This document shows, in pieces, positions 14,840-28,597 of a stretch of 29,543 bases of DNA; within the stretch, counting starts at the first letter, position 1, and each line of letters begins with the position of its first letter. The notes beneath the pieces are model-generated. The model had not been told where the DNA came from and made no database searches. It saw only the letters and a list, made by a program, of their open reading frames with translations. A program made the translations under genes and the position numbers. Source of the stretch: a virus; IMG/VR virus record IMGVR_UViG_3300022602_000309, positions 1 to 29,543 of that record. One strand, given 5' to 3'.

Positions 14840-16477
14840 ATGAAAAAGAAGAAAAAAGTAGCAAAAATACCGCCAAAAACAACGGTAAAAGTTCAGCCTA
14901 TTTCACCCCAGTTGGTGGCAAAACTTCAAAATGCCATGAATGCTCACGCTGCGGGTCATAATGAATTAGCCATAATGACTGCTGAAGAGATCATAAAAGC
15001 AGCCCCAAATCACCCAGATGCCTATCATCTTATAGGATGTATTTTAGGTTCAGTCAAAAATTATTTGGCTGCTTTGCAGTATTTTAACCTTTCAATTGAA
15101 CGATTTGCCAATAATCCGGTGGCATTAAATAATCGGGCAAATGTATTTCAAGCCCTAAAACAGCCAGAGTTGGCTATGCATGATTTTGATGCTGCTATTA
15201 AATTGCAACCAAATTATGCCGAAGCACACTATAACAAAGGCATTGTTTTGGGAACTATGCATAGAATAGAAGAGGAAATTGAGTGCTATAACTTGGCTTT
15301 AAAATATAGGCCTAACTTTCCAGAAGCCTACAATAATAAAGGTATTGCACTGCAAAAACTCCATAGAATGGAAGAAACTTTAGCTTGCTATCAGGCTGGA
15401 ATAGCTCAAAACCCTAAAGGAGTTGAGGCTTTTTACAATAATCGTGGTCTTGTTTATCAAAACCTTGGTCGCCCTGATGAGGCTTTAGAAGACTATAACA
15501 AAGCTATTGCTATTGATCCAAATCTAGCAGACGCGCGATTTAATAGGTCTTTATGCCTACTTTTGCGTGGGGAATATGATACTGCGTGGGAAGAACACGA
15601 ATGGCGCTGGATGCGTCCAGTCTACCCAAGACGAAATCTGCCCGGAATTCTGTATGACGGAACACAAGATTTAAGCAATAAAATACTATTTATTCATGGA
15701 GAACAAGGGCTTGGCGATATGCTGCAGTTTTGCCGATACGCCAAGTTAGCAAAAGATGCTGGGGCTAAAGTATTGTTGGGTACTGAAAAACCTCTAGTTA
15801 AGTTATTAAGCACTTTAGAGGGCATAGATCAGGTCGTCACAACCGGTGGTGCCATACCCCCATTTGACTACCATATTGCCCTTATGAGCCTTCCTTACGC
15901 GTTTAAAACCCGTATGGACAATATCCCTCATGGAATTTACATTAAACCAGATCATGAATTGGTAGACCAATTTAAGGGGCAATTTTTTTCTTTTGGTAGA
16001 AAAAAGAATGTAGGTTTGGTTTGGAGTGGTGGTTTTAGGCCTGACCAGCCAGAAGTATGGGCGGTTAATGAACGCAGAAATATTGCTTTGGAAAAGCTTT
16101 TACCATTAAAAGAAGCTGATGTTAATTTCTATTCTTTGCAAAAAGGCGAAGGTCCAGAAAAAGAGTTAGAAGACTGCTTGGGCTGGAAGAATATGATTAA
16201 TGATACTGCCCACTTTAAAGACTTTGCGGATACCGCGGCTTATATTGCTAATCTAGATTTGGTTATTTGCGTAGATACTTCTACTTGCCACGTTGCCGCC
16301 GCAATGGGCAAAGAGGTGTGGATGATGAACCGATTTGATACCTGCTGGCGTTGGTTTATGGATAGAACCGATAGCCCTTGGTATCCCACTATTAAACTTT
16401 ACCGCCAGCCCAAGTTGGGCGACTGGGAATCTGTAGTTCAAAACATTAAAGAGGATTTGATTAAATGGGCAACATAA
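14840..16477 (+). CDS. TPR-domain glycosyltransferase (GT9/GT41-like)
   Basis: 545 residues. A Lys-rich N-terminus is followed by about six tetratricopeptide repeats (residues ~30-245; e.g. AEAHYNKGIVLGTMHRIEEE, PEAYNNKGIALQKLHRMEET, RPDEALEDYNKAIAIDPNLA). The C-terminal half is a GT-B-like transferase domain with HGEQGLGDMLQF (287-297), GLVWSGG (392-398) and the donor-site-like CVDTSTCHVAAAMG (477-490). TPR-linked transferases of this type add sugars to proteins or surface glycans, the TPR array binding the acceptor. It is the first gene of a plus-strand cassette that opposes the surrounding structural genes. No good Shine-Dalgarno precedes the ATG; a start at Met33 is possible. The acceptor is unknown. 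Confidence 0.88.
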   Translation: MKKKKKVAKIPPKTTVKVQPISPQLVAKLQNAMNAHAAGHNELAIMTAEEIIKAAPNHPDAYHLIGCILGSVKNYLAALQYFNLSIERFANNPVALNNRANVFQALKQPELAMHDFDAAIKLQPNYAEAHYNKGIVLGTMHRIEEEIECYNLALKYRPNFPEAYNNKGIALQKLHRMEETLACYQAGIAQNPKGVEAFYNNRGLVYQNLGRPDEALEDYNKAIAIDPNLADARFNRSLCLLLRGEYDTAWEEHEWRWMRPVYPRRNLPGILYDGTQDLSNKILFIHGEQGLGDMLQFCRYAKLAKDAGAKVLLGTEKPLVKLLSTLEGIDQVVTTGGAIPPFDYHIALMSLPYAFKTRMDNIPHGIYIKPDHELVDQFKGQFFSFGRKKNVGLVWSGGFRPDQPEVWAVNERRNIALEKLLPLKEADVNFYSLQKGEGPEKELEDCLGWKNMINDTAHFKDFADTAAYIANLDLVICVDTSTCHVAAAMGKEVWMMNRFDTCWRWFMDRTDSPWYPTIKLYRQPKLGDWESVVQNIKEDLIKWAT

Positions 16478-17232
16478 TTTTATTGCAAGGTGGAATGGGT
16501 GATTTTTTGCAGTTTCTACCATTTGTTGATGCTAATAGAAAAAACAATTTACGATATTGTTGTATATCGCATTTAAAGGGTGCTAAAGAGTTTTGGAATA
16601 CTGTTGGAATAGAACCTGAAGAAGTTTTTATATTTAATACTTTAGAAGAGCAAAATTTAATATTAAATGCCCTTCCAAAAACTGAAAAATATATGCACTG
16701 CCCGCGCGGACAATATTTTGATATTTACCCATTTGACCACCAAAAACCATTGTTTACTAACAATAAACCCACAATCGGGGTTCATGTTAATGGAAGTCAT
16801 TTTTCTATTGATACGCAAAAGAAATTTGGGATGATCTTAAAGTCTATTCCTGCGCGCGTCATTAAAGTATTAAAGTCTAAAGATTACAATTTAATGGTAT
16901 TTGGATTAGAAGAAGAGTTAAAAGGAATGGGTATACGCCAGTCCGAAACATTAAAGTTTGTATGCGATCCTAATCCTGCAAAAAGTTTAGCTTATGTTGG
17001 TCAATGCTATGCGGTAGTTGGCAGCGATAGCGGAATAAAAACCATGAGTTCAATGAATGGAATGCCTACTTTTGTATGGCTTGGAGATTATGTAGATCCA
17101 CCAAGAGATCAAAATTTTATAGATCCATATGTTAAAGATGGCGTAATGAAGGTATTTCGTTATAAAGATGTCGAGGCACAATTTGATCGCGGTATGGCGA
17201 TGACAAAACAATTTATTGCGGAACTTTTTTAA
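16465..17232 (+). CDS. Glycosyltransferase family 9-like protein
   Basis: 255 residues. The N-terminus MGNIILLQGGMGDFLQFLPF matches the GGxGD loop of heptosyltransferase-type GT-B enzymes. The C-terminal region has FVCDPNPAKSLAYVGQCYAV then VGSDSGIKTMSSMNGMPTFV, the usual nucleotide-sugar-site layout with its (S/T)D(S/T)G motif. It is shorter than classical GT9 enzymes (about 320-350 residues), so it may be a reduced or atypical transferase. The gene overlaps the TPR-transferase gene by 13 bp and the SGNH gene by TAATG, so the three are translated together. A joint role in building or modifying a glycan is inferred. Confidence 0.75.
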   Translation: MGNIILLQGGMGDFLQFLPFVDANRKNNLRYCCISHLKGAKEFWNTVGIEPEEVFIFNTLEEQNLILNALPKTEKYMHCPRGQYFDIYPFDHQKPLFTNNKPTIGVHVNGSHFSIDTQKKFGMILKSIPARVIKVLKSKDYNLMVFGLEEELKGMGIRQSETLKFVCDPNPAKSLAYVGQCYAVVGSDSGIKTMSSMNGMPTFVWLGDYVDPPRDQNFIDPYVKDGVMKVFRYKDVEAQFDRGMAMTKQFIAELF

Positions 17233-17870
17233 TGTTTCATGTTGTTGGAGATTCTCATAGCATTATTTGGTCTGGAAACACATTTCAAGGTTGGAGCGGA
17301 GATCATAAATTTCCTAATATTAAAGTCCACCATTTAGGACCCTTGCTTGCCTATCATTTGTGGGGAGAAAATAATATTGGTAAATGGGGTACAAAAGTTT
17401 TTGACACCATAGAAAACCAAGATGTATCTGCTTTAGCTATTTCTTTTGGGGAAATAGATACTAGAACTAAATCCGTAAAGATGGCACAAAATATGCAATT
17501 ACGTCAATCTTGCGAAATTATTGCTAGCAGAATACTAAACTTTTGCTCCGTAGCACGAATGTTTTATGATTTTCCTATCTTTATCATGGCTCCAATTGCT
17601 TCAGGGCCAGAAGGCGAAGATGCGTTTGGTACGCCATTCGAGCGCAACTTGGCAACTTTATATTTTAATAATTATTTGAAAACAGAACGATTTTCTGTAA
17701 AAGATTTATATGTTGTTTCAATCGCTGAAAAGTTAATGACTAATAAATTAGAAACAAAAACACAATACTATTCAGATAAAGTACATTTAAACTTAGAGGG
17801 ATTTAAATTGCTTGCTGAAGAATTTAACAAAGTTGTAGAAGAAAACCAATTAAAAAACCCCGCTTTATGA
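17232..17870 (+). CDS. SGNH/GDSL-like hydrolase
   Basis: 212 residues. Block I is at the very N-terminus: FHVVGDSHS places the putative nucleophile at Ser8. SFGEIDTR (71-78) stands where the GxND block would be. SDKVHLN (181-187) supplies the catalytic Asp182 and His185. Enzymes of this fold deacylate, or transfer acyl groups between, carbohydrates. No signal peptide is present, so it should act in the cytoplasm, for example on a nucleotide-sugar-built glycan. The GEID variant of the third block is known from SGNH-like proteins found with glycan genes. It is last in the glycosyltransferase cassette, and its stop lies inside a minus-strand terminator hairpin. Confidence 0.8.
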   Translation: MFHVVGDSHSIIWSGNTFQGWSGDHKFPNIKVHHLGPLLAYHLWGENNIGKWGTKVFDTIENQDVSALAISFGEIDTRTKSVKMAQNMQLRQSCEIIASRILNFCSVARMFYDFPIFIMAPIASGPEGEDAFGTPFERNLATLYFNNYLKTERFSVKDLYVVSIAEKLMTNKLETKTQYYSDKVHLNLEGFKLLAEEFNKVVEENQLKNPAL

Positions 17871-18186: not shown

Positions 18187-19089
18187 TTAGTAAGAACCGT
18201 ATACACCCAATGGATCAGAATAACCAAAGGAATAACGCTCACGAGACTTGTAACGGACGTTACCAGTATCAAAGTCGCCATCCATAGAATTCTGGAGTGG
18301 GGTACGAACAAAGTGTTTCAAACCATTTGGAACATCAGTGGTCAAGAACCATGCGTTGGTAGCGGTCAAAAAGTGGTTAATTGTGTAACCTTCTGGAACG
18401 GAACCGTTGTTCTTGATTGCATTGATGTCGTTGTTGTTTGTGCCAACGCGCAATTCAGTTTCGAGCAAACGAGTTGCAACGAACTGGAGTGCAGGAGGAA
18501 CAACCAACTTGCGTGGTTTAGCAGCGATCAACAGACCACGCTCATCGGTCCAAGCAGCAATTTGAATAACAGCATTTTCCAATGCGGTTTCGTTCAAGTC
18601 AGCAGGAGTAGATGGGGTGTTGCCGTTGGTGCCACCGTTAACCAATGGGTGTGAGGTGCTGAACAATGAAACGCCATCACCACCGGTATAAGCGGAGTTG
18701 AAACCGTTATTCAAAATTGCAGCAGCTTTAACCTGTTTGGTGTAAGCCATAGCACGAGCTAGACCTTTGGTGTAGCGAGCTGATAAAGAATCGTAGAGGT
18801 TATCTTCGATTGCTTCTTCGGTCAAGCTAAAGCCAAGGGCGATAGTTTCGTGGTTGTAGCGAGCTGTCCATGCTTCTTGCGCATTATCATACGCAATTGC
18901 ATTGCCTTCAGGCTTAACTGGTGCAGCGCTAAAGCCGGACAATTTTGTTTCTTCTTCGAAGGAACGCTCAGAGGTCTCTGTTTCGTAGATCTCTTTGTGT
19001 TCTTCACCATAGCGAGCATACTCTAATCCGAACAGTGCATTCAATCCGGGGAGCAACTCTTTCAGTAGTTGTGCGCGTGAAATAGCCAT
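18187..19089 (-). CDS. Major capsid protein (HK97 fold, Mu gpT-like)
   Basis: 300 residues. The N-terminus (MAISRAQLLKELLPGLNALFG) begins without a long scaffold-like delta domain. An E-loop-like region follows (ETKLSGFSAAPVKPEGNAIA). The body has LGFSLTEEAIEDNLYDSLSA, TSHPLVNGGTNGN, RKLVVPPALQFVATRLLETE and a C-terminus with YSFGYSDPLGVYGSY. This is the pattern of the Mu gpT-like major head protein group. A strong AAGGAG site precedes the ATG, in keeping with high expression. It lies at the end of the portal-chaperonin-scaffold gene order and is followed by a terminator. Confidence 0.9.
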   Translation of the reverse strand: MAISRAQLLKELLPGLNALFGLEYARYGEEHKEIYETETSERSFEEETKLSGFSAAPVKPEGNAIAYDNAQEAWTARYNHETIALGFSLTEEAIEDNLYDSLSARYTKGLARAMAYTKQVKAAAILNNGFNSAYTGGDGVSLFSTSHPLVNGGTNGNTPSTPADLNETALENAVIQIAAWTDERGLLIAAKPRKLVVPPALQFVATRLLETELRVGTNNNDINAIKNNGSVPEGYTINHFLTATNAWFLTTDVPNGLKHFVRTPLQNSMDGDFDTGNVRYKSRERYSFGYSDPLGVYGSY

Positions 19090-21422: not shown

Positions 21423-21830
21423 TTAAATAAATTTGCGGGTAATTCCGCGTGGATCGTCCACAATTGCCTCTACGGAATCATCGTTAATAATGCGGAATTC
21501 TCTGCCGTGGATTACTAGGCGTGTTCCAGCGTTGGGGCGCACAAGGATAAAATCACCCTGTTTGCACCAAGGTCCGGTGGGGAAACGCTCTTTATCTGCG
21601 TAACAATCGGGTCCTAGGGATACTACAAATAGGACTGTTGTTAGAATTTCGTCATTTTTAATGGTGACGTCTGCTTTGGCTAGACCGCTGTCAAATTCTT
21701 TTTCAGCCTCAGGAATGGCGCAAAGAATGCGATATCCTTGGGGTTTTGGAAGTTGACTGGCTTTTTCCTCTTGGCTCTTGTCGAGTACTGCTGATAAATC
21801 TACTGCTTGTGCTAAATTTAAATCATTCAT
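21423..21830 (-). CDS. GroES-like co-chaperonin (Cpn10 family)
   Basis: 135 residues. After a ~28-residue extension, the Cpn10 core runs from KPQGYRILCAIPEAEKEF through a mobile-loop region (FDSGLAKADVTI). It continues VVSLGPDCYADKERFPTGPW, CKQGDFILVRPNAGTRL and EFRIINDDSVEAIVDDP. The order and the GPxCY...GPWCK...GD...V.R pattern match phage GroES-like proteins (functional analogues of T4 gp31). It would cap host GroEL and help fold the capsid protein, whose gene lies downstream. It overlaps the small gene at 21823-22017 by 8 bp. The mobile loop differs from E. coli GroES, so GroEL pairing is inferred. Confidence 0.85.
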   Translation of the reverse strand: MNDLNLAQAVDLSAVLDKSQEEKASQLPKPQGYRILCAIPEAEKEFDSGLAKADVTIKNDEILTTVLFVVSLGPDCYADKERFPTGPWCKQGDFILVRPNAGTRLVIHGREFRIINDDSVEAIVDDPRGITRKFI

Positions 21831-22017
21831 CGTCGGAATGTTCCATTCTGTGTTTAAGGTCTAATGCGTACTGCTTTGCAAAGAGAAGACCTTGTATCTC
21901 CCCGCAAATCTTTTGGTAGCTTTCAAACGACTGTGCGTTTCCGGCTGACATCCATTCTTTAAGTTGTACTGCCTTGTTGTCTAGTTCTGTGACTAAAACT
22001 TCAAAAGCGTCCATCAT
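21823..22017 (-). CDS. Small helical protein between portal and co-chaperonin
   Basis: 64 residues: MMDAFEVLVTELDNKAVQLK, EWMSAGNAQSFESYQKICGE, then IQGLLFAKQYALDLKHRMEH and SDDE. It is a predicted all-helical, acidic-tailed protein. I recognise it as a small conserved phage protein encoded just after the portal. The first ATG (22017) overlaps the portal stop by four bases (ATGA); a second ATG follows directly. Function unknown; position suggests a head-assembly accessory. Confidence 0.78.
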   Translation of the reverse strand: MMDAFEVLVTELDNKAVQLKEWMSAGNAQSFESYQKICGEIQGLLFAKQYALDLKHRMEHSDDE

Positions 22018-24554
22018 TCACCTTTCTGTTTTGGCTCCATTTGTTTCATTTGTGATTCATGTTGCTCTCTGCTTTTTTGCAATGCAACATTAGTTATCAG
22101 CTGTTTGTTCTGTAACTGATGTGCCTTATCTTTTTCAGAGATGTGCTTCACAAGATCTACACCCATCTTCATCTTCTCAACTGTTTCGGAAGTTTCCATT
22201 TGTGCTTGAGATTTTGCTGCGTCCATAGCCACTTGTGAGGCAATACGGGCGCGTTCTACTTTGATACGCTCTTGTTCGATCATTAAATCGTTTTGATCTT
22301 TTTGAGTTTTTCGTTTTTGCTCTGCCATCTTGATCTGCATATCTTGTTGTTGTAACTGGACAAGCGGATCTTGAGCCTGCTGCTGTGCTTGCTGCGCTGC
22401 AACCTGCTGTTGGTTTTGCTGTAACAAACGCTGTGAAGCCTGCGCCAACAATGGTGCAAGGCGGGCTTCGACTTCTGGATCCATGTGAACATCTTCGCCA
22501 GACTCGTCCTGCTGAGGTGGCAAGGACATACCGAGCTGCTTTTCAATCTCAACGCGATACTGGAATCCAAGGTGTTCGTTAATATGCGCCATCATCGCGG
22601 CTTGTAACTGCTGTGCCATTGGGTTGCCCTGCAACAACTGCATAATCTTAGGATCTTTCATCGCAGACATATGCACTGTGATGTGAGCCGTATGATCTTG
22701 GTATTGGAATGCCTTGGCTGGCTTCATCATCAAGATATCTTGATTTTCTGTGACAGGATCTTTAGGCATCATGTCTTCTGGCAGCGGAATCAACTTATGC
22801 GCATTCTTAATGCTCAATACATCTAGCATTTGACGATAGAGTAATGGCATATTGAAAAGTGTTGGCGACTGCTGTGCTAACTGCATAACTGCCTGATATT
22901 GAACAATCTTCTGCGCCATCGTGGATGCGTTAGGATCGCTGACAGGAATGACATCTACGTTATGGTAATCAGACTGCTTGGCTTTACGGCTTCCTTCTTC
23001 TGGCTCATAGTCATAATCTACCGGTGCATTGTTTCCGATAATTTTCTTTAATAGCTTTAACTCTTGCTTTAAGCTGTAATGAATACGGGCTTGCACTGCA
23101 GACATGACTTTGAGAGTGCGCTCAAGGATGGCAAGCGTTGTGCCGACGGGCGCGGCAGCTGACATATCAGAAATCTGTAAATCGGCTGTATTTGCAAAGC
23201 GACGGCCTTCTTCTACGATCTGATTGAGCAGCGCCATCAATACTTGGCTTGGCTCTTTGTATGGTAAAGGCATGATGTTGTCGCGCATCACGCCAGATGG
23301 GACGTCTACATCACGGAACTCGCCCGGTGCTATTGGTGTGTCGTCACCTTTGACGCGCAAGCCACGGGTCTTAAAGCCACCCGGCAGATTTGCGAGGGAG
23401 CCTGCATCGACCAGCTGACGAATAATGGAAGTGCCACTTTTAGCATAAGCGCCAATAAGGTGGATGAGACCAAAACAATAAAAACCAAAACCGGGAATAT
23501 ACCCATAATGGACGAAGTGCTGGAGTTTCTTGTGTTTCTCATCATCTGGCTCCCAGTTTCTACGGATAGACAACACCGTATTTGTGCCTTTTTCAATGGT
23601 TACGATATATGGCAAACCAATTCCAGTAGGATTGCCATCTTCATCGGTATGCTCGTAACCTTCTAAGTCTAGGTTAACGTGCATCTCTAAAATCTTGTAG
23701 CGGTCATCAGAAGTAGCTCGGAATCCTAACTTTTCTGCAATTTTTTTCTCTACTTCGTCTAGCGAATTGACTGGATCGCCAATATCTACATCGCGATAGA
23801 ACCCAGCCACCTGCAAAGCGCGCAATTCATTCTCAGTTTTGCGCATAACGTGGGTTACGCGGTCAGCAGATTCTAGGCTTGAAGCGCCGTAAGGCACAAC
23901 CATATCTTCGGCTGGCACATACATCGCTACTTGACGGCCTAATTGCTCATCTTCGTAGACTTTTTTGAACGCATTACCCGCTAAACCCAAGCCCCACAGC
24001 ATTCTTTCGGTTTCTGGGCGGTATTCCTGCATGACTTCGGTCAATTCGTAGTTCATATCCTCTTGAACACGCTCTGCCGCAGCCTTTTTATCTGGTGTTT
24101 CCTTACCAATAACGTGGGTTTTTACTGGACCCGACGCTGGAAAGATGGACATCATGGTTTCTGCTTGGAATTTAACCAAAGCTTCGCTCAAAAGTGGGTG
24201 GTAAACGCCACAAGCGCCCTCCCAAGGCTCACTTCTTTCCTCAATTTTTAGGCCTAAAAGCTCTAATCCGTCCACATAAGTTTGAATCCAGTCTTTTCGC
24301 GCGCCAATATCGCCTTCGAAGTCTTCTATAAGACTGCTTGCAATCGAAACTAGGACGCGATCATCAATTTCTTCAGCTAAGTTAGCGTAGAAATCATCGC
24401 TTTTCTCGCTGTCAGGCGTTAAAGTAATCTCTAGCCCGTCCATTCCAATGGTAACTTCCTTTGGATCTACCACCTCAATCTCTAGTGGCTGTTCTTTTTC
24501 AGCCAAAGCGTCAATCCCTTCGGGGGCTTGGTAGAGAGCTTTATCAATTGCCAT
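22014..24554 (-). CDS. Portal protein (P22-like family)
   Basis: 846 residues. Conserved blocks include DWIQTYVDGLELLGLKIEER, SEPWEGACGVYHPLLSEALV, FQAETMMSIFPASGPVKTHV and YVPAEDMVVPYGASSLESAD. HLIGAYAKSGTSIIRQLVDA and AAAPVGTTLAILERTLKVMS follow, making up the clip and stem. The C-terminal ~170 residues are Gln-rich and helical (LLQQNQQQVAAQQAQQQAQD), like the barrel of P22-type portals. The dodecameric portal is the vertex through which terminase packages DNA and to which the adaptor attaches. It follows the large terminase gene by 13 bases with an AGGAA site. Confidence 0.9.
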   Translation of the reverse strand: MAIDKALYQAPEGIDALAEKEQPLEIEVVDPKEVTIGMDGLEITLTPDSEKSDDFYANLAEEIDDRVLVSIASSLIEDFEGDIGARKDWIQTYVDGLELLGLKIEERSEPWEGACGVYHPLLSEALVKFQAETMMSIFPASGPVKTHVIGKETPDKKAAAERVQEDMNYELTEVMQEYRPETERMLWGLGLAGNAFKKVYEDEQLGRQVAMYVPAEDMVVPYGASSLESADRVTHVMRKTENELRALQVAGFYRDVDIGDPVNSLDEVEKKIAEKLGFRATSDDRYKILEMHVNLDLEGYEHTDEDGNPTGIGLPYIVTIEKGTNTVLSIRRNWEPDDEKHKKLQHFVHYGYIPGFGFYCFGLIHLIGAYAKSGTSIIRQLVDAGSLANLPGGFKTRGLRVKGDDTPIAPGEFRDVDVPSGVMRDNIMPLPYKEPSQVLMALLNQIVEEGRRFANTADLQISDMSAAAPVGTTLAILERTLKVMSAVQARIHYSLKQELKLLKKIIGNNAPVDYDYEPEEGSRKAKQSDYHNVDVIPVSDPNASTMAQKIVQYQAVMQLAQQSPTLFNMPLLYRQMLDVLSIKNAHKLIPLPEDMMPKDPVTENQDILMMKPAKAFQYQDHTAHITVHMSAMKDPKIMQLLQGNPMAQQLQAAMMAHINEHLGFQYRVEIEKQLGMSLPPQQDESGEDVHMDPEVEARLAPLLAQASQRLLQQNQQQVAAQQAQQQAQDPLVQLQQQDMQIKMAEQKRKTQKDQNDLMIEQERIKVERARIASQVAMDAAKSQAQMETSETVEKMKMGVDLVKHISEKDKAHQLQNKQLITNVALQKSREQHESQMKQMEPKQKGE

Positions 24555-24567
24555 ATGTTTTTCCTAG

Positions 24568-26061
24568 TTAATAGTACCCAGCATTACGTCGGGATTTAAA
24601 ATACTGCGGTTCGTCGGGTTCATCGGATGGAAGTCTAATGAATCCGCCCTGTCTAAAGCGAATAAGCGCTTGCGTGGATGAGTCCACCAAGTCGTCGTGA
24701 TCTGAATTAGGGAAAGACGCCATCTCTTCGATAACTTCTTCCGCCCATCTTTTCTCAGGCGCCCAAACCTTGCCAGACGCAAACAAATCTGTTACTGAAT
24801 TCAATCGGGCTATCTTATCATTTCCGCGGGTTGGGGTAAACTCGGATACGGGAATACCCATGCGTCGTAATTCGCCAATTAACGGCAGTCCTGATGCCTT
24901 ACCTTCCACGATAAACGCATCTGGCTGGAACTCTTTGTACATTTCAAAGGCTTTATCCTTCAATTCAGGAAACTCCAAGCGCGCTTTATAGGCATCTAAC
25001 AGAATAACGTGGGGATCATTTTCGTTCTCATTCATATAAAAAACACCCCAAGTCGTGCAGGCTGAGTAGTCTGAACGCTCATTTTTGGTAAAGGCGGTAT
25101 CCCAAGACTGGATCACAAACTCGCAACGAGGAGGGTAATCTTGCTCCCATACCTTCCACCATTCGCGCTTAACTAATGCGCCTTCTTCGGAGGTGGGCTG
25201 TTGTTGATACTGCGCCTGCCACTTGGATATCGGCAATTCTTCCCGCAATACCTCTAATTCTTTGAGATCCCAGAACTCTGGCCATAGGGCGCGCCCCGAC
25301 GGGAGAATCGCTGGAAAGTCAATCGTCTCCCATGTGTCTCCATCTTTCTCGATTGACGATTTAACAATCCTGCCAGTTAAGTCTTTCTTAGCCCAGCGTG
25401 TCATAACTACTATAATCGCTCCTCCCGGCTGGAGTCGCTGACGTGGACCTGAGGAATACCATTCGTATACTTTATCGTAAACTTCGGGATTCGTGGCCGC
25501 AATCGCAGCTTCCTGTTCAGAATGCGGGTCGTCGATGATGAGCAAATCCGCGCCCTTACCAGTAACGGTACCGCCAACACCGATAGCAAAATACTCGCCA
25601 TTACCGCTAGTACTCCAGCGACCAGCAGCTTTACTATCTGACCTAAGAGAGACATTTGGGAACACTTTCGCATATTGTTCGCTTCCTACTAAGTTACGGA
25701 CTTTTCGTCCAAAGCCTACTGCCAGTTCAGCAGTGTTACTACACTGAATAATCTTCTTATTAGGGAAACGCCCCAAGAACCAAGCAGGAAGCATATAAGA
25801 AGCAAACTCAGACTTGGTATGTCGTGGAGGCATATTAATAATAAGTCTTTTAATTTTCCCACTGGCTATCTCCTCAAACTTCTTGGCCATCACCTTATGG
25901 TGGGCGCCATTAATAAATCCGGGCCACATCTCATGGACAAAAGCCATAAAGTCAGTGGTTGCTTTTTCGCGCTTTTTAGAATTTAAATACACCTCCGCCG
26001 CCTCCATAAAGGCAGCTTGCTGGGCAGGGTCTAGCTTTTTAACTAGCTCGGTCAGATTCAT
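24568..26061 (-). CDS. terL: Terminase large subunit (packaging ATPase-nuclease)
   Basis: 497 residues. ATPase domain: a variant Walker A, INMPPRHTKSEFAS (75-88), with Lys83; Walker B LLIIDDPHS (173-181); coupling motif MTRW (220-223). Nuclease domain: IQSWDTAF with Asp321, FIVEGKASG with Glu386, and SDHDDLVDSS with Asp454/Asp457/Asp460, forming the RNase H-like metal site. It drives DNA into the procapsid through the portal and cuts the concatemer. The ATG at 26061 lies 23 bases inside the stop end of the LexA-type protein gene. The C-terminus ends FKSRRNAGYY, likely a portal-docking tail. Confidence 0.96.
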   Translation of the reverse strand: MNLTELVKKLDPAQQAAFMEAAEVYLNSKKREKATTDFMAFVHEMWPGFINGAHHKVMAKKFEEIASGKIKRLIINMPPRHTKSEFASYMLPAWFLGRFPNKKIIQCSNTAELAVGFGRKVRNLVGSEQYAKVFPNVSLRSDSKAAGRWSTSGNGEYFAIGVGGTVTGKGADLLIIDDPHSEQEAAIAATNPEVYDKVYEWYSSGPRQRLQPGGAIIVVMTRWAKKDLTGRIVKSSIEKDGDTWETIDFPAILPSGRALWPEFWDLKELEVLREELPISKWQAQYQQQPTSEEGALVKREWWKVWEQDYPPRCEFVIQSWDTAFTKNERSDYSACTTWGVFYMNENENDPHVILLDAYKARLEFPELKDKAFEMYKEFQPDAFIVEGKASGLPLIGELRRMGIPVSEFTPTRGNDKIARLNSVTDLFASGKVWAPEKRWAEEVIEEMASFPNSDHDDLVDSSTQALIRFRQGGFIRLPSDEPDEPQYFKSRRNAGYY

Positions 26062-26281
26062 TAGGGCGCTTTAATTTAATGTATGCGGGGCGGACGGACC
26101 GGGCGGTACGGGGGATTCTTTTACAGTGTCCCAGTTCGCACAGCCTAACGATGATTCTCTGGATATTCGCCTTAGACTTATCTCCGGTAATATCCATAAT
26201 ATTTTGAATCGAGGGCGCGTATCCCCGCTTGAGCCAATAGGTCTCAATCACCTCATAGACGTATTGTTGCTTTTCTGTCAT
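26039..26281 (-). CDS. Stand-alone LexA-type winged-helix DNA-binding protein
   Basis: 80 residues with the layout of the LexA N-terminal DNA-binding domain. Helix 1 is MTEKQQYVYEVIETYWLKRG, helix 2 PSIQNIMDITG (23-33), recognition helix KSKANIQRIIVRLCELG (35-51), wing HCKRIPRTARSVRPAYIKL. There is no Ala-Gly cleavage site or Ser/Lys peptidase domain, so it cannot be self-cleaved like LexA. Against E. coli LexA, Ser39 is kept, but positions of Asn41, Ala42, Glu44 and Glu45 become Ala38, Asn39, Gln41 and Arg42, so it probably reads a different operator. A GTG at 26374 would lengthen it. The ATG at 26281 overlaps the micro-ORF stop (ATGA) and is preferred. Confidence 0.78.
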   Translation of the reverse strand: MTEKQQYVYEVIETYWLKRGYAPSIQNIMDITGDKSKANIQRIIVRLCELGHCKRIPRTARSVRPAYIKLKRPNESDRAS

Positions 26282-26349
26282 AAAAGGATATTTAAGGCTA
26301 ACCAGATAATCGCCATTCCAAGGAGGGCTAACACAAAATCGCGGTTCAT
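26278..26349 (-). CDS. 23-residue hydrophobic micropeptide, likely transmembrane
   Basis: ATG at 26349, TGA at 26280-26278. The peptide starts MNRDF and is then almost wholly hydrophobic (VLALLGMAIIWLALNILL), the length of one membrane span. Its start codon overlaps the stop of the gene at 26346-26567 (ATGA). Its stop overlaps the start of the LexA-like gene (ATGA). Without it, the two annotated neighbours would be separated by 64 untranslated bases without a good ribosome binding site for the second. The double coupling is the main evidence that it is translated. Function unknown; regulation of a membrane process or translational relay are possibilities. Confidence 0.6.
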   Translation of the reverse strand: MNRDFVLALLGMAIIWLALNILL

Positions 26350-26567
26350 AGATGGCTTTCCCAGTTGCGGTCACTCCCCGCCTCTTCGCCCGCTACCCAA
26401 TGCGCAGACGCAACTCGGTCTTGGTGCTGTACCACTCCATAGATACGGGAACACACTTCTAACACATACCGGATATCGGATACGGATAGCTGTCCCATTA
26501 ACTGTAGGATCTTAATAACCGCCACATCATTATCTAGGGGTTGGGGTTTTACAATAGATTCAATCAT
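26346..26567 (-). CDS. Small hypothetical protein upstream of terminase
   Basis: 73 residues. The N-terminal helical region contains AVIKILQLMGQLSVSDIRYV and LEVCSRIYGVVQHQDRV; the C-terminus is polar (AGEEAGSDRNWESHL). No motif that I recognise. The start at 26567 overlaps the preceding gene's stop by ATGA, and the stop overlaps the micropeptide start by ATGA, so it belongs to a four-gene coupled chain leading into terL. Confidence 0.65.
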   Translation of the reverse strand: MIESIVKPQPLDNDVAVIKILQLMGQLSVSDIRYVLEVCSRIYGVVQHQDRVASAHWVAGEEAGSDRNWESHL

Positions 26568-26743
26568 TTCATCATCCTCTCAATTATGTTCTTAGCTTCA
26601 ATTTCAGCTAGTTTCTCTTGGTCCTTCTGCTCCTTAATCAAACAACTATGCTCGTGGCTTAAGAACTCTACTAGCCTAGCGTACTGCTCTAGTCTTCCTA
26701 TAGCCCAGTCCAACTCATACTTCACATCCTTAATATTTCTCAT
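26564..26743 (-). CDS. Small coiled-coil protein
   Basis: 59 residues, helical and highly charged: MRNIKDVKYELDWAIGRLEQ, YARLVEFLSHEHSCLIKEQK, then DQEKLAEIEAKNIIERMMK. A TTG at 26779 would extend it but lies inside a hairpin loop. The ATG at 26743 has a GGGGGG ribosome binding site, part of the 3' arm of the hairpin at 26752-26790. It is the first of the coupled small genes upstream of terL. Function unknown; a coiled-coil oligomer is predicted by eye. Confidence 0.68.
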   Translation of the reverse strand: MRNIKDVKYELDWAIGRLEQYARLVEFLSHEHSCLIKEQKDQEKLAEIEAKNIIERMMK

Positions 26744-26751
26744 AAAAATAT

Positions 26752-26790
26752 ACCCCCCACCCCTGTTGTAAAAAAACAACGAAGGGGGGT
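26752..26790 (-). promoter_or_regulatory. Hairpin sequestering the ribosome binding site of the 26743 gene
   Basis: On the minus strand, ACCCCCC (26790-26784) pairs perfectly with GGGGGGT (26758-26752), and an inner stem GTTGT/ACAAC encloses a U-rich loop. The GGGGGG arm is the only plausible Shine-Dalgarno for the ATG at 26743. Because ATATTTTT follows the stem, the element could also act as a weak intrinsic terminator after the small terminase gene. Either way it would lower expression of the genes leading to terL. Confidence 0.6.
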
Positions 26791-26824: not shown

Positions 26825-27547
26825 TTATTGATTTTGCTCATCTTCTTTATTTTTGGAGATAGGGGGGCTACTTTCAAGTGGTGATTGGATGTCTGGAATA
26901 GTATGCAAGGTCTCTAAGGGACTCCTACTCTCCAAAAGGGGGGTATGGGGGTCGCTGATATGCCCGCTAGAATCGCCAAGTCCCTGTCCTTCTATTTCTC
27001 GCATAAGGTTTTGAATGTCCAAGTCTTCGTCAATAGTGCGAGTGCTATCGTTTAGGGCTTGTTTAAGCATGGCTAATAGATCATCTTTGGCCTTATCGCT
27101 ATCCTTCACGACTTTAGTCTCTGATCTATGTATAAAGGAATCAACACCGGCAATAGTTCCCAATGCTTTCAAAGCATTAACCCTTACGCTAGGGTTAGAA
27201 TCCTCGGCTATGGCCTCGACTGTAAGCCTATGAGCTACTAATGCCCTTATTTGTCCGGCTGTATGCGATTTCTCCCATTCAATCGCTAGCTTAATCGCTT
27301 CTGTTGTAGCCTGAATATCCCCTCGCTTGCTCATCTCATGCCCTCGCTTTGCTATTGTCCGACTATTGCCCTTACTGTTATATGCTTTCCGATACGCACC
27401 GGCTTTAGTCTCTCCCCGTGCTAATCCCTCACAATATTTGAACTGCTTACTTGTGAGTGCTGATTTATTAACATTCAATAGCTCATACATGGGGGCTTGA
27501 TCTAAGGCCTCATTGATTTGCTTTTTACTTAATCGAGGGATTCTCAT
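26825..27547 (-). CDS. terS: Terminase small subunit
   Basis: 240 residues. The DNA-binding helical region ALTSKQFKYCEGLARGETKA, GAYRKAYNSKGNSRTIAKRG, then HEMSKRGDIQATTEAI is typical of small-terminase HTH domains. A helical oligomerisation part follows (IRALVAHRLTVEAIAEDSNP, VRVNALKALGTIAGV). The C-terminal ~55 residues are Ser/Pro/Asp-rich and probably disordered, a possible TerL contact. It recognises the packaging site and loads the large subunit. It starts at the divergent control region and is followed by the hairpin at 26752-26790, then the small coupled genes and terL. Confidence 0.88.
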   Translation of the reverse strand: MRIPRLSKKQINEALDQAPMYELLNVNKSALTSKQFKYCEGLARGETKAGAYRKAYNSKGNSRTIAKRGHEMSKRGDIQATTEAIKLAIEWEKSHTAGQIRALVAHRLTVEAIAEDSNPSVRVNALKALGTIAGVDSFIHRSETKVVKDSDKAKDDLLAMLKQALNDSTRTIDEDLDIQNLMREIEGQGLGDSSGHISDPHTPLLESRSPLETLHTIPDIQSPLESSPPISKNKEDEQNQ

Positions 27548-27583
27548 ATATACATAATAGAAACATCATCAGAACACCGGCAC

Positions 27584-27592
27584 AGTATATCA
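27584..27592 (-). promoter_or_regulatory. Candidate extended -10 promoter for the terminase operon
   Basis: The minus strand reads TGATATACT, i.e. TGn plus TATACT, about 40 bases before the small-terminase start codon. The two SOS boxes lie directly upstream, where the -35 region would be, so LexA bound there should block this promoter. No good -35 sequence is seen. Confidence 0.5.
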
Positions 27593-27598
27593 GCACTA

Positions 27599-27614
27599 CT
27601 GTATAAATGCACAG
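27599..27614. promoter_or_regulatory. LexA (SOS) box 1
   Basis: CTGT-ATAAATGC-ACAG: both half-sites are perfect with the canonical 8-base spacing (20-base context TACTGTATAAATGCACAGGA). This is the gamma/betaproteobacterial LexA operator form. It sits in the divergent region between terS and the plus-strand operon, two bases from box 2. Confidence 0.8.
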
Positions 27615-27616
27615 GA

Positions 27617-27632
27617 CTGTATAAATCCACAG
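27617..27632. promoter_or_regulatory. LexA (SOS) box 2
   Basis: CTGT-ATAAATCC-ACAG, again both half-sites perfect with 8-base spacing. Centre-to-centre distance to box 1 is 18 bp, close to two helical turns, allowing two LexA dimers on adjacent faces. Paired SOS boxes usually give tight repression, as upstream of colicin genes. A TATAAA element at 27633-27638 directly adjoins it and could be a plus-strand -10 under LexA control. Confidence 0.8.
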
Positions 27633-27678: not shown

Positions 27679-27698
27679 TTCTTGATCTAGGTCAAGAA
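27679..27698. promoter_or_regulatory. FNR/CRP-family-like dyad
   Basis: TTCTTGA-TCTAGG-TCAAGAA has 7-bp perfect arms. Its core TTGAT-CTAG-GTCAA (27682-27695) matches the FNR/ANR consensus TTGAT-N4-ATCAA with one mismatch. Its centre is 41.5 bp upstream of a start site near 27730, if AATACT at 27718-27723 is used as -10, the position used at activated class II promoters. Binding by host FNR is inference. Confidence 0.45.
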
Positions 27699-28300: not shown

Positions 28301-28597
28301 ATGACCAATCTATATGCTCAAGAGGCCTTATCCCGTGCTAGAGGCAATACAAGCGGGCTTAACTATCAGACGATATTTGCGGGCTTTATGGCTAGAGGTA
28401 TTCCTTCCAGCGAGATCATTCCCCGTGAGAATGTTTTAACCTATAAAGCATGGCAAGCAATAGGCCGGCAAGTAAAAAAAGGTGAAAAAGGGGTCAAGGT
28501 TATTACATGGATCAGATATACCGACAAAACCGGCCAAGAAGTCGTTAAACCGCAATCCGCTTATGTATTTCATATTTCACAGACTGAAAGGGTATAA
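28301..28597 (+). CDS. Stand-alone ArdC N-terminal-domain protein
   Basis: 98 residues. The core ENVLTYKAWQAIGRQVKKGE, KGVKVITWI and YVFHISQTE matches the end of the ArdC N-terminal (DUF1738-type) domain: N-x-L-T/Y-x-x-W...VKKGEKG. In full-length ArdC antirestriction proteins (about 300 residues) this domain binds single-stranded DNA and a zinc metalloprotease-like domain follows. Here the protein ends at the DNA-binding part. It may protect incoming DNA or act in replication; a direct antirestriction effect is uncertain without the second domain. It lies in the early operon, where anti-defence genes are often placed. Confidence 0.75.
   Translation: MTNLYAQEALSRARGNTSGLNYQTIFAGFMARGIPSSEIIPRENVLTYKAWQAIGRQVKKGEKGVKVITWIRYTDKTGQEVVKPQSAYVFHISQTERV

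Follow-up and report, generated by a model that had tools for sequence, protein, structure and literature searches.

The window analyzed here, a 29,543-base stretch of a virus record, contains two perfect, adjacent CTGT-N8-ACAG boxes at the promoter of a packaging and head operon, a gene for a LexA-like DNA-binding domain within this operon, and an 11-bp direct repeat just past the -10 region of the same promoter. According to the reading we prefer, to which we give an even chance of being right, two LexA-family proteins would act on this one late promoter, a host LexA of the beta/gammaproteobacterial type at the tandem boxes and the phage LexA fragment at the direct repeat. An initial annotation of the region had recognized the boxes and attributed them to host LexA, and it overlooked both the phage-encoded LexA DNA-binding domain in the operon and the second, alpha-type site. 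The features and their positions are listed in Table 1.

Table 1. Features of the terS promoter region and of the operon that follows it, with positions in the window.
Feature	Position	Strand	Remarks
Distal tandem box	27617..27632	-	plus-strand letters CTGTATAAATCCACAG; 20.3 bits; 18-bp spacing kept among relatives
Proximal tandem box	27599..27614	-	plus-strand letters CTGTATAAATGCACAG; 22.0 bits; perfect in about 30 distinct relatives
Extended -10 of the terS promoter	27584..27592	-	TGATATACT; recurs with the same spacing in most box-bearing relatives
11-bp direct repeat, candidate fragment site	27560..27575	-	GTTCTGATGATGTTTC; GTTC-N7-GTTC layout, one mismatch
Terminase small subunit (terS), first operon gene	26825..27547	-	PHROG terminase small subunit, E 1e-4
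Small ORF in operon, function unassigned	26564..26779	-	ORF
Small ORF in operon, function unassigned	26346..26567	-	ORF
LexA DNA-binding domain gene, 80 aa	26039..26281	-	PF01726; start taken as Met32 of ORF 26039-26374
Terminase large subunit (terL)	24568..26061	-	PF17289 and PHROG 38
Portal protein, operon continues	22014..24554	-	tblastn to annotated portal / head-to-tail connecting proteins
Capsid protein, further downstream	18187..19089	-	PF25209

Tandem boxes at the promoter of the packaging operon

The letters of the two boxes were confirmed, including their 8-base spacing and the gap of 2 bp between CTGTATAAATGCACAG and CTGTATAAATCCACAG (18 bp from centre to centre); the start at 27597 given in the initial annotation takes in the TA flank ahead of the proximal box. 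The pair accounts for both matches to CTGT-N8-ACAG in the entire window. Shuffles of the whole window gave 0.34 matches on average and at least two anywhere in 6 of 100 cases, and the mere occurrence of two boxes carries only modest weight against chance; their adjacency, the SOS-like flanks and their conservation are better evidence. Scored with a matrix of 14 known E. coli SOS boxes, both boxes fell within the range of the native E. coli boxes (15-27 bits on their own matrix, with a single exception at 5), and the next best site of the window reached 14.4 bits.

The boxes are kept in about 30 distinct relatives although the flanking DNA has drifted, so that the search of close relatives proposed in the initial annotation found them present rather than absent. 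In an alignment of 29 distinct relatives on the proximal box, the information content was 0.3-0.4 bits per base in the flanks, compared with 0.9-1.1 for the distal half-sites, 1.2 for the extended -10 and 2.0 for the proximal half-sites. Relatives had been chosen for this set by a perfect proximal box, and the distal box played no part in the choice. The right half of the distal box is often degenerate among relatives. A perfect box was present in 48 of 91 deduplicated loci having a LexA fragment and a terS promoter, and a scan for the tandem pattern alone yielded 120 loci, 14 of which combined boxes, terS and LexA fragment, four of these from a deep sister clade. Among the pairs of boxes listed for viral contigs, a 2-bp gap was the commonest, an approximate result as the sample contains a few loci from an earlier scan for this gap. 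The motif, the promoter position, the E. coli-like scores and the conservation agree with the beta/gammaproteobacterial SOS operator named in the initial annotation. The tandem boxes are very probably functional and, judged by their letters, constitute a strong operator pair of the canonical beta/gammaproteobacterial LexA type, to which LexA is predicted to bind.

The extended -10 that had been noted just downstream on the minus strand is indeed present and conserved. It is separated from the proximal box by 6 nt, and a TGnTAnnnT element at the same distance recurs in most box-bearing relatives. Counted from this -10, the proximal box would extend from about -37 to -22, over the -35/spacer region, and the distal box from about -55 to -40. 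The proposed repression is supported by this position, at which RNA polymerase on the packaging operon would be blocked, and we assign the boxes by their geometry to the minus-strand terS-terL-portal-capsid promoter. The initial annotation had proposed that host LexA represses the packaging genes, the early genes or both. Position and conservation favor the packaging-operon promoter, but no link to the early operon was found: a plus-strand TATAAA does adjoin the distal box, but relatives keep no promoter-like element there, and no conserved early-operon promoter element was seen at the boxes in their alignment. Control of the early operon was rejected because only the terS side has a conserved -10.

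To the left of the boxes, the minus strand encodes terS, two small genes, the LexA-like gene, terL (its first bases shared with the last ones of the LexA fragment gene), the portal, a GroES-like protein and the capsid. The terS product had no match above the cut-off in curated Pfam. Tandem host-type LexA boxes thus stand at the promoter of virion genes, which by their content would be expressed late. The GroES-like protein within the head operon (21423-21830) is a weak match. To the right of the boxes, the plus strand carries short genes, one of which (28301-28597) encodes a short protein with an ArdC N-terminal (anti-restriction) domain (PF08401). On the same, early-operon side lies a near-palindrome, CTTGATCTAGGTCAAG (27681-27696), with an FNR/DNR-like layout, possibly the operator of a divergent early promoter. 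Elsewhere, the window encodes a TPR protein, weakly matching glycosyltransferase 9, together with two neighbors of unassigned function (14840-17870, plus strand) and a 2OG-Fe(II) oxygenase (529-1257).

Tandem boxes also occurred at loci without a LexA fragment in the DNA examined, and 67 of 69 distinct loci of this kind had them outside any long ORF. Neighboring genes included Sf6-type terS, terS-looking genes, assigned by reading the sequence with no family match, and T4-type gp32 genes. One such locus precedes a recN-like gene and serves as positive control, recN being a known SOS gene. Upstream of other small-terminase or terminase-looking genes (L015, L016, L017, L031, L034, L071, L105, L112, L119), two to five CTGT-N8-ACAG boxes stand in arrays, usually joined by TA linkers, and no LexA-like gene was found in the DNA examined around them. 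At L007, L008, L012 and L035, the tandem motif lies upstream of genes for T4-type gp32 single-strand DNA-binding proteins. In two relatives (records G002 and G005), a single box precedes a ParB-like gene at matching places (L378, 2394-2409; L379, 1963-1978), followed in one of them by a helicase-like gene. These genes, named from reading their translations rather than by family search, apparently belong to an early replication operon.

A LexA DNA-binding domain encoded by the phage

The LexA-like gene probably starts at the methionine given in Table 1. Its product scored 32.9 bits against PF01726, above the curated cut-off of 23.7, and TIGR00498 matched residues 1-64 only, at 33 bits and far under its cut-off of 111. 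The structure model (pLDDT 90) has the winged helix-turn-helix fold of LexA, and the best solved structures for it were those of E. coli LexA, LexA-DNA complexes first, with 3jso as top PDB match (rmsd 1.5 over 65 columns). A profile search with the fragment also retrieved LexA proteins. PF01726 was present in one copy in the window and in each of nine related records, and the S24 peptidase domain (PF00717) was not found in these ten, possibly incomplete, records. The phage protein is therefore of LexA type in fold and family and comes without the self-cleavage and dimerization part, for which reason we propose that it cannot respond to RecA. Among 80 TerL relatives (65-99% identity), the fragment gene lies directly before terL in most of those with enough upstream sequence.

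The recognition helix of the fragment appears from its sequence to be of the alphaproteobacterial type, not of the beta/gamma type, and the alignment score of the window fragment averaged 87 against alphaproteobacterial LexA and 46 against Burkholderiales LexA. From alphaproteobacterial genomes we collected 28 LexA proteins with [KR]SKS[GN][IV]H helices, one of them with the N variant that is also found in many phage fragments; these proteins were picked by the helix pattern, so that their helix likeness is not an independent finding. Upstream of their lexA genes, GTTC-N7-GTTC was present in 23 of 28 cases and CTGT-N8-ACAG in none of the 28. The Burkholderiales LexA helix, FRSPNAAEEHL and close variants, differs from that of the phage fragment, and CTGT-N8-ACAG was found within 400 nt upstream of 8 of 15 Burkholderiales lexA genes. 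Host LexA would be the most economical reader of the tandem boxes, because several Burkholderiales lexA genes have the motif upstream and because unrelated, fragment-less phage loci share tandem boxes near terS.

The window covers part of a tailed phage genome; the portal protein is 42-44% identical to those of Pelagibacter phage HTVC027P and phage DSL-LC04. These two and others are also the nearest isolates by TerL (48-60%), and they have neither the boxes nor the LexA fragment in the regions examined. At the DNA level, nothing matching was found among phage records. Host assignment by a TerL scan of genome contigs was discarded, as it returned seven MAG contigs filed under unrelated phyla. 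The initial annotation had suggested either a temperate or pseudolysogenic lifestyle or damage-timed expression. The former was not borne out: nine related virus records (28-62 kb, possibly incomplete) yielded no tyrosine integrase, and the ten records that include the window no S24 repressor. Lysogeny is not indicated.

A direct repeat past the -10 region

The repeat GTTCTGATGATGTTTC follows the -10 on the minus strand, directly past the presumed transcription start. The LexA box of Alphaproteobacteria is a GTTC-N7-GTTC direct repeat (PMC3323433, PMC8565304). Boxes of this alpha type were found in terS promoters, perfect in several relatives and with one mismatch in the window, the latter being a point against the reading with two inputs. 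Most relatives have the direct repeat near terS, whether CTGT boxes are present or not. When the promoters were compared with themselves, matches at lag 11 were overrepresented in HR as well as non-HR lineages. The strict pattern RTWCY-N6-RTWCC, with a period of 11, occurred in 38 of 65 deduplicated promoters outside the deep clade, on the forward strand only, compared to about 0.4 expected from shuffles and 0-2 for other periods in any class. Since the pattern was found incidentally and fitted to sites already seen, this enrichment is descriptive, and the period and the strand specificity of the repeat are the stronger points.

Two groups lack the repeat. It is absent from fragment-less relatives, save one truncated member of the group, and from the deep sister clade, which carries the LexA fragment and a related terS; the latter is the second point against the reading with two inputs. 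Among [HQ]R fragments, Ser in the helix went with GTTC half-sites (17:2) and Gly with RTACC (12:0), but the Ser/Gly change is one event on the tree and hence not independent evidence. From the layout of the site and the type of the helix, the phage LexA fragment most likely binds the repeat at 27560-27575. The near-palindrome at 27681-27696 was considered as a fragment site and rejected, as it occurs in none of the non-HR or deep-clade fragment-bearing loci; outside the deep clade, 29 of 41 boxed [HQ]R loci had it, as did 2 of 10 unboxed ones.

In the deep clade, the terS leaders (L422, L438, L449, L460 and others) keep GCGAACAGTG after the -10, followed by a hairpin-like stretch with compensating changes, judged by eye. 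A conserved stretch resembling GCGAAGCGGAACAGT just upstream of or within the terS start (L228, L250, L251 and many relatives) is a candidate packaging signal.

Readings of the promoter and known systems

In the preferred reading, host LexA would hold the packaging and head operon low through the tandem boxes, and DNA damage or the phage's own replication would lead to cleavage of LexA by RecA and thus to release of the operon. The operon would then make the 80-residue, RecA-blind LexA DNA-binding domain, and this fragment, on the repeat past the -10, would place the terS promoter under SOS-independent control, which from the position of the repeat would be repression.

The leading rival, which we regard as rather improbable, is that the tandem boxes are the target of the fragment, which would thereby repress the operon that encodes it; the likeness to SOS boxes would then be mimicry or convergence, and the repeat would be otherwise employed. 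Perfect boxes were found at 56 of 92 loci with an [HQ]R helix, but at none of the 33 loci with another helix and none of the 14 that have no fragment (two more loci with boxes lie on truncated contigs and stand outside these counts); in an earlier, smaller set, before 80 more loci were added, the figures were 47 of 57 versus 0 of 33. This confinement to [HQ]R-helix loci, unpredicted by host LexA alone, is a point against host LexA as the reader. The pattern-only scan also recovered boxes, terS and fragment together in the deep clade, at promoters without the direct repeat. The case that this covariation makes for the fragment as reader of the boxes was, however, weakened in the enlarged set: 36 of the 92 [HQ]R loci are without a perfect terS box, and phylogenetic pairs give no significance. 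The terS tree shows just about 5-8 changes of the box and helix traits, which leaves too few independent pairs for a test, and perfect boxes are missing from many phages of the deep clade that share the helix; the covariation was therefore kept as a rival explanation. Moreover, the closest helices, those of the 28 alphaproteobacterial LexA proteins, pair with GTTC-N7-GTTC and in no case with CTGT-N8-ACAG.

It is unlikely that host LexA alone controls the promoter through the boxes, the fragment acting elsewhere, e.g., as a RecA-blind competitor at host SOS genes, and the repeat being unrelated. The boxes do match the host-type motif, and tandem boxes near terS also occur in phages for which the DNA examined contains no fragment, but throughout the group the fragment is encoded inside the controlled operon, and the same promoter contains a matching alpha-type site. 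Still less credence is due to the view that the boxes are LexA sites and the repeat a packaging (pac) or terS-binding site. Pac sites are common just before terS, which is where the repeat lies; against this, it is absent from the deep clade despite the related terS and from the fragment-less relatives except the one truncated member, it has the layout of the alpha LexA box, and its half-sites follow the fragment helix. A functionless chance match of the boxes, to which the 6 of 100 shuffles with at least two matches anywhere in the window might point, is scarcely credible given their adjacency and promoter position and is effectively refuted by conservation over about 30 lineages with drifted flanks.

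The reading with two inputs has a precedent in the late promoter P3 of GIL01, which is controlled by host LexA (with gp7) and by gp6, a truncated LexA homologue (PMC6182141). There, the two-input logic of tandem host-LexA boxes and a separate gp6 site has been demonstrated experimentally, and gp6 acts as an activator bound to a palindrome at -43.5 (PMC6182141). The terS promoter likewise has tandem host-type boxes at a late promoter and a separate, here candidate, site for a phage LexA DNA-binding domain. GIL01, however, is a Bacillus tectivirus with Gram-positive boxes, whereas the phage studied here is tailed and has CTGT-N8-ACAG boxes; in place of the activating palindrome at -43.5 there is an alpha-type repeat past the -10, the position of which suggests repression; and the fragment, known here from sequence, is made from the late operon itself. 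The two-LexA logic at a late promoter is thus already known from GIL01, and by this comparison the tailed-phage version would differ in site type, position and probably sign.

Further parallels are partial. As with the paired adjacent LexA boxes by which costly genes are tightly repressed at colicin promoters (PMC6182141), the boxes here are adjacent and paired, but the colicin co-regulator is IscR or AsnC, whereas here phage packaging genes are concerned and the co-regulator would be a truncated LexA. Sites for the host regulator CtrA in phages of Alphaproteobacteria have been linked to 'lytic deferment' (PMC9437464). Both cases show host-regulator sites concentrated at a phage promoter with apparently no need for lysogeny; those phages use CtrA and the cell cycle, whereas here it would be LexA and DNA damage, plus a phage-encoded relative of the regulator. 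With alphaproteobacterial LexA, the fragment shares the type of recognition helix and its candidate site the direct-repeat layout with an 11-bp period (PMC8565304, PMC3323433), but the fragment is without the cleavage and dimerization domain and the half-site varies to RTACC in relatives.

More broadly, it is conceivable, if doubtful, that tailed phages of a large, mostly uncultured group use two LexA-family inputs at one promoter to time packaging and thereby sense damage without lysogeny. If this is true, damage sensing would be wired into virion packaging of apparently non-integrating phages, and the logic of GIL01, known from one tectivirus, would have arisen separately in tailed phages. 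The fragment would be a natural example of the LexA DNA-binding domain released from the self-cleaving half of the protein, and the differences between Ser and Gly helices and between GTTC and TACC repeats would allow direct tests of how LexA specificity evolves.
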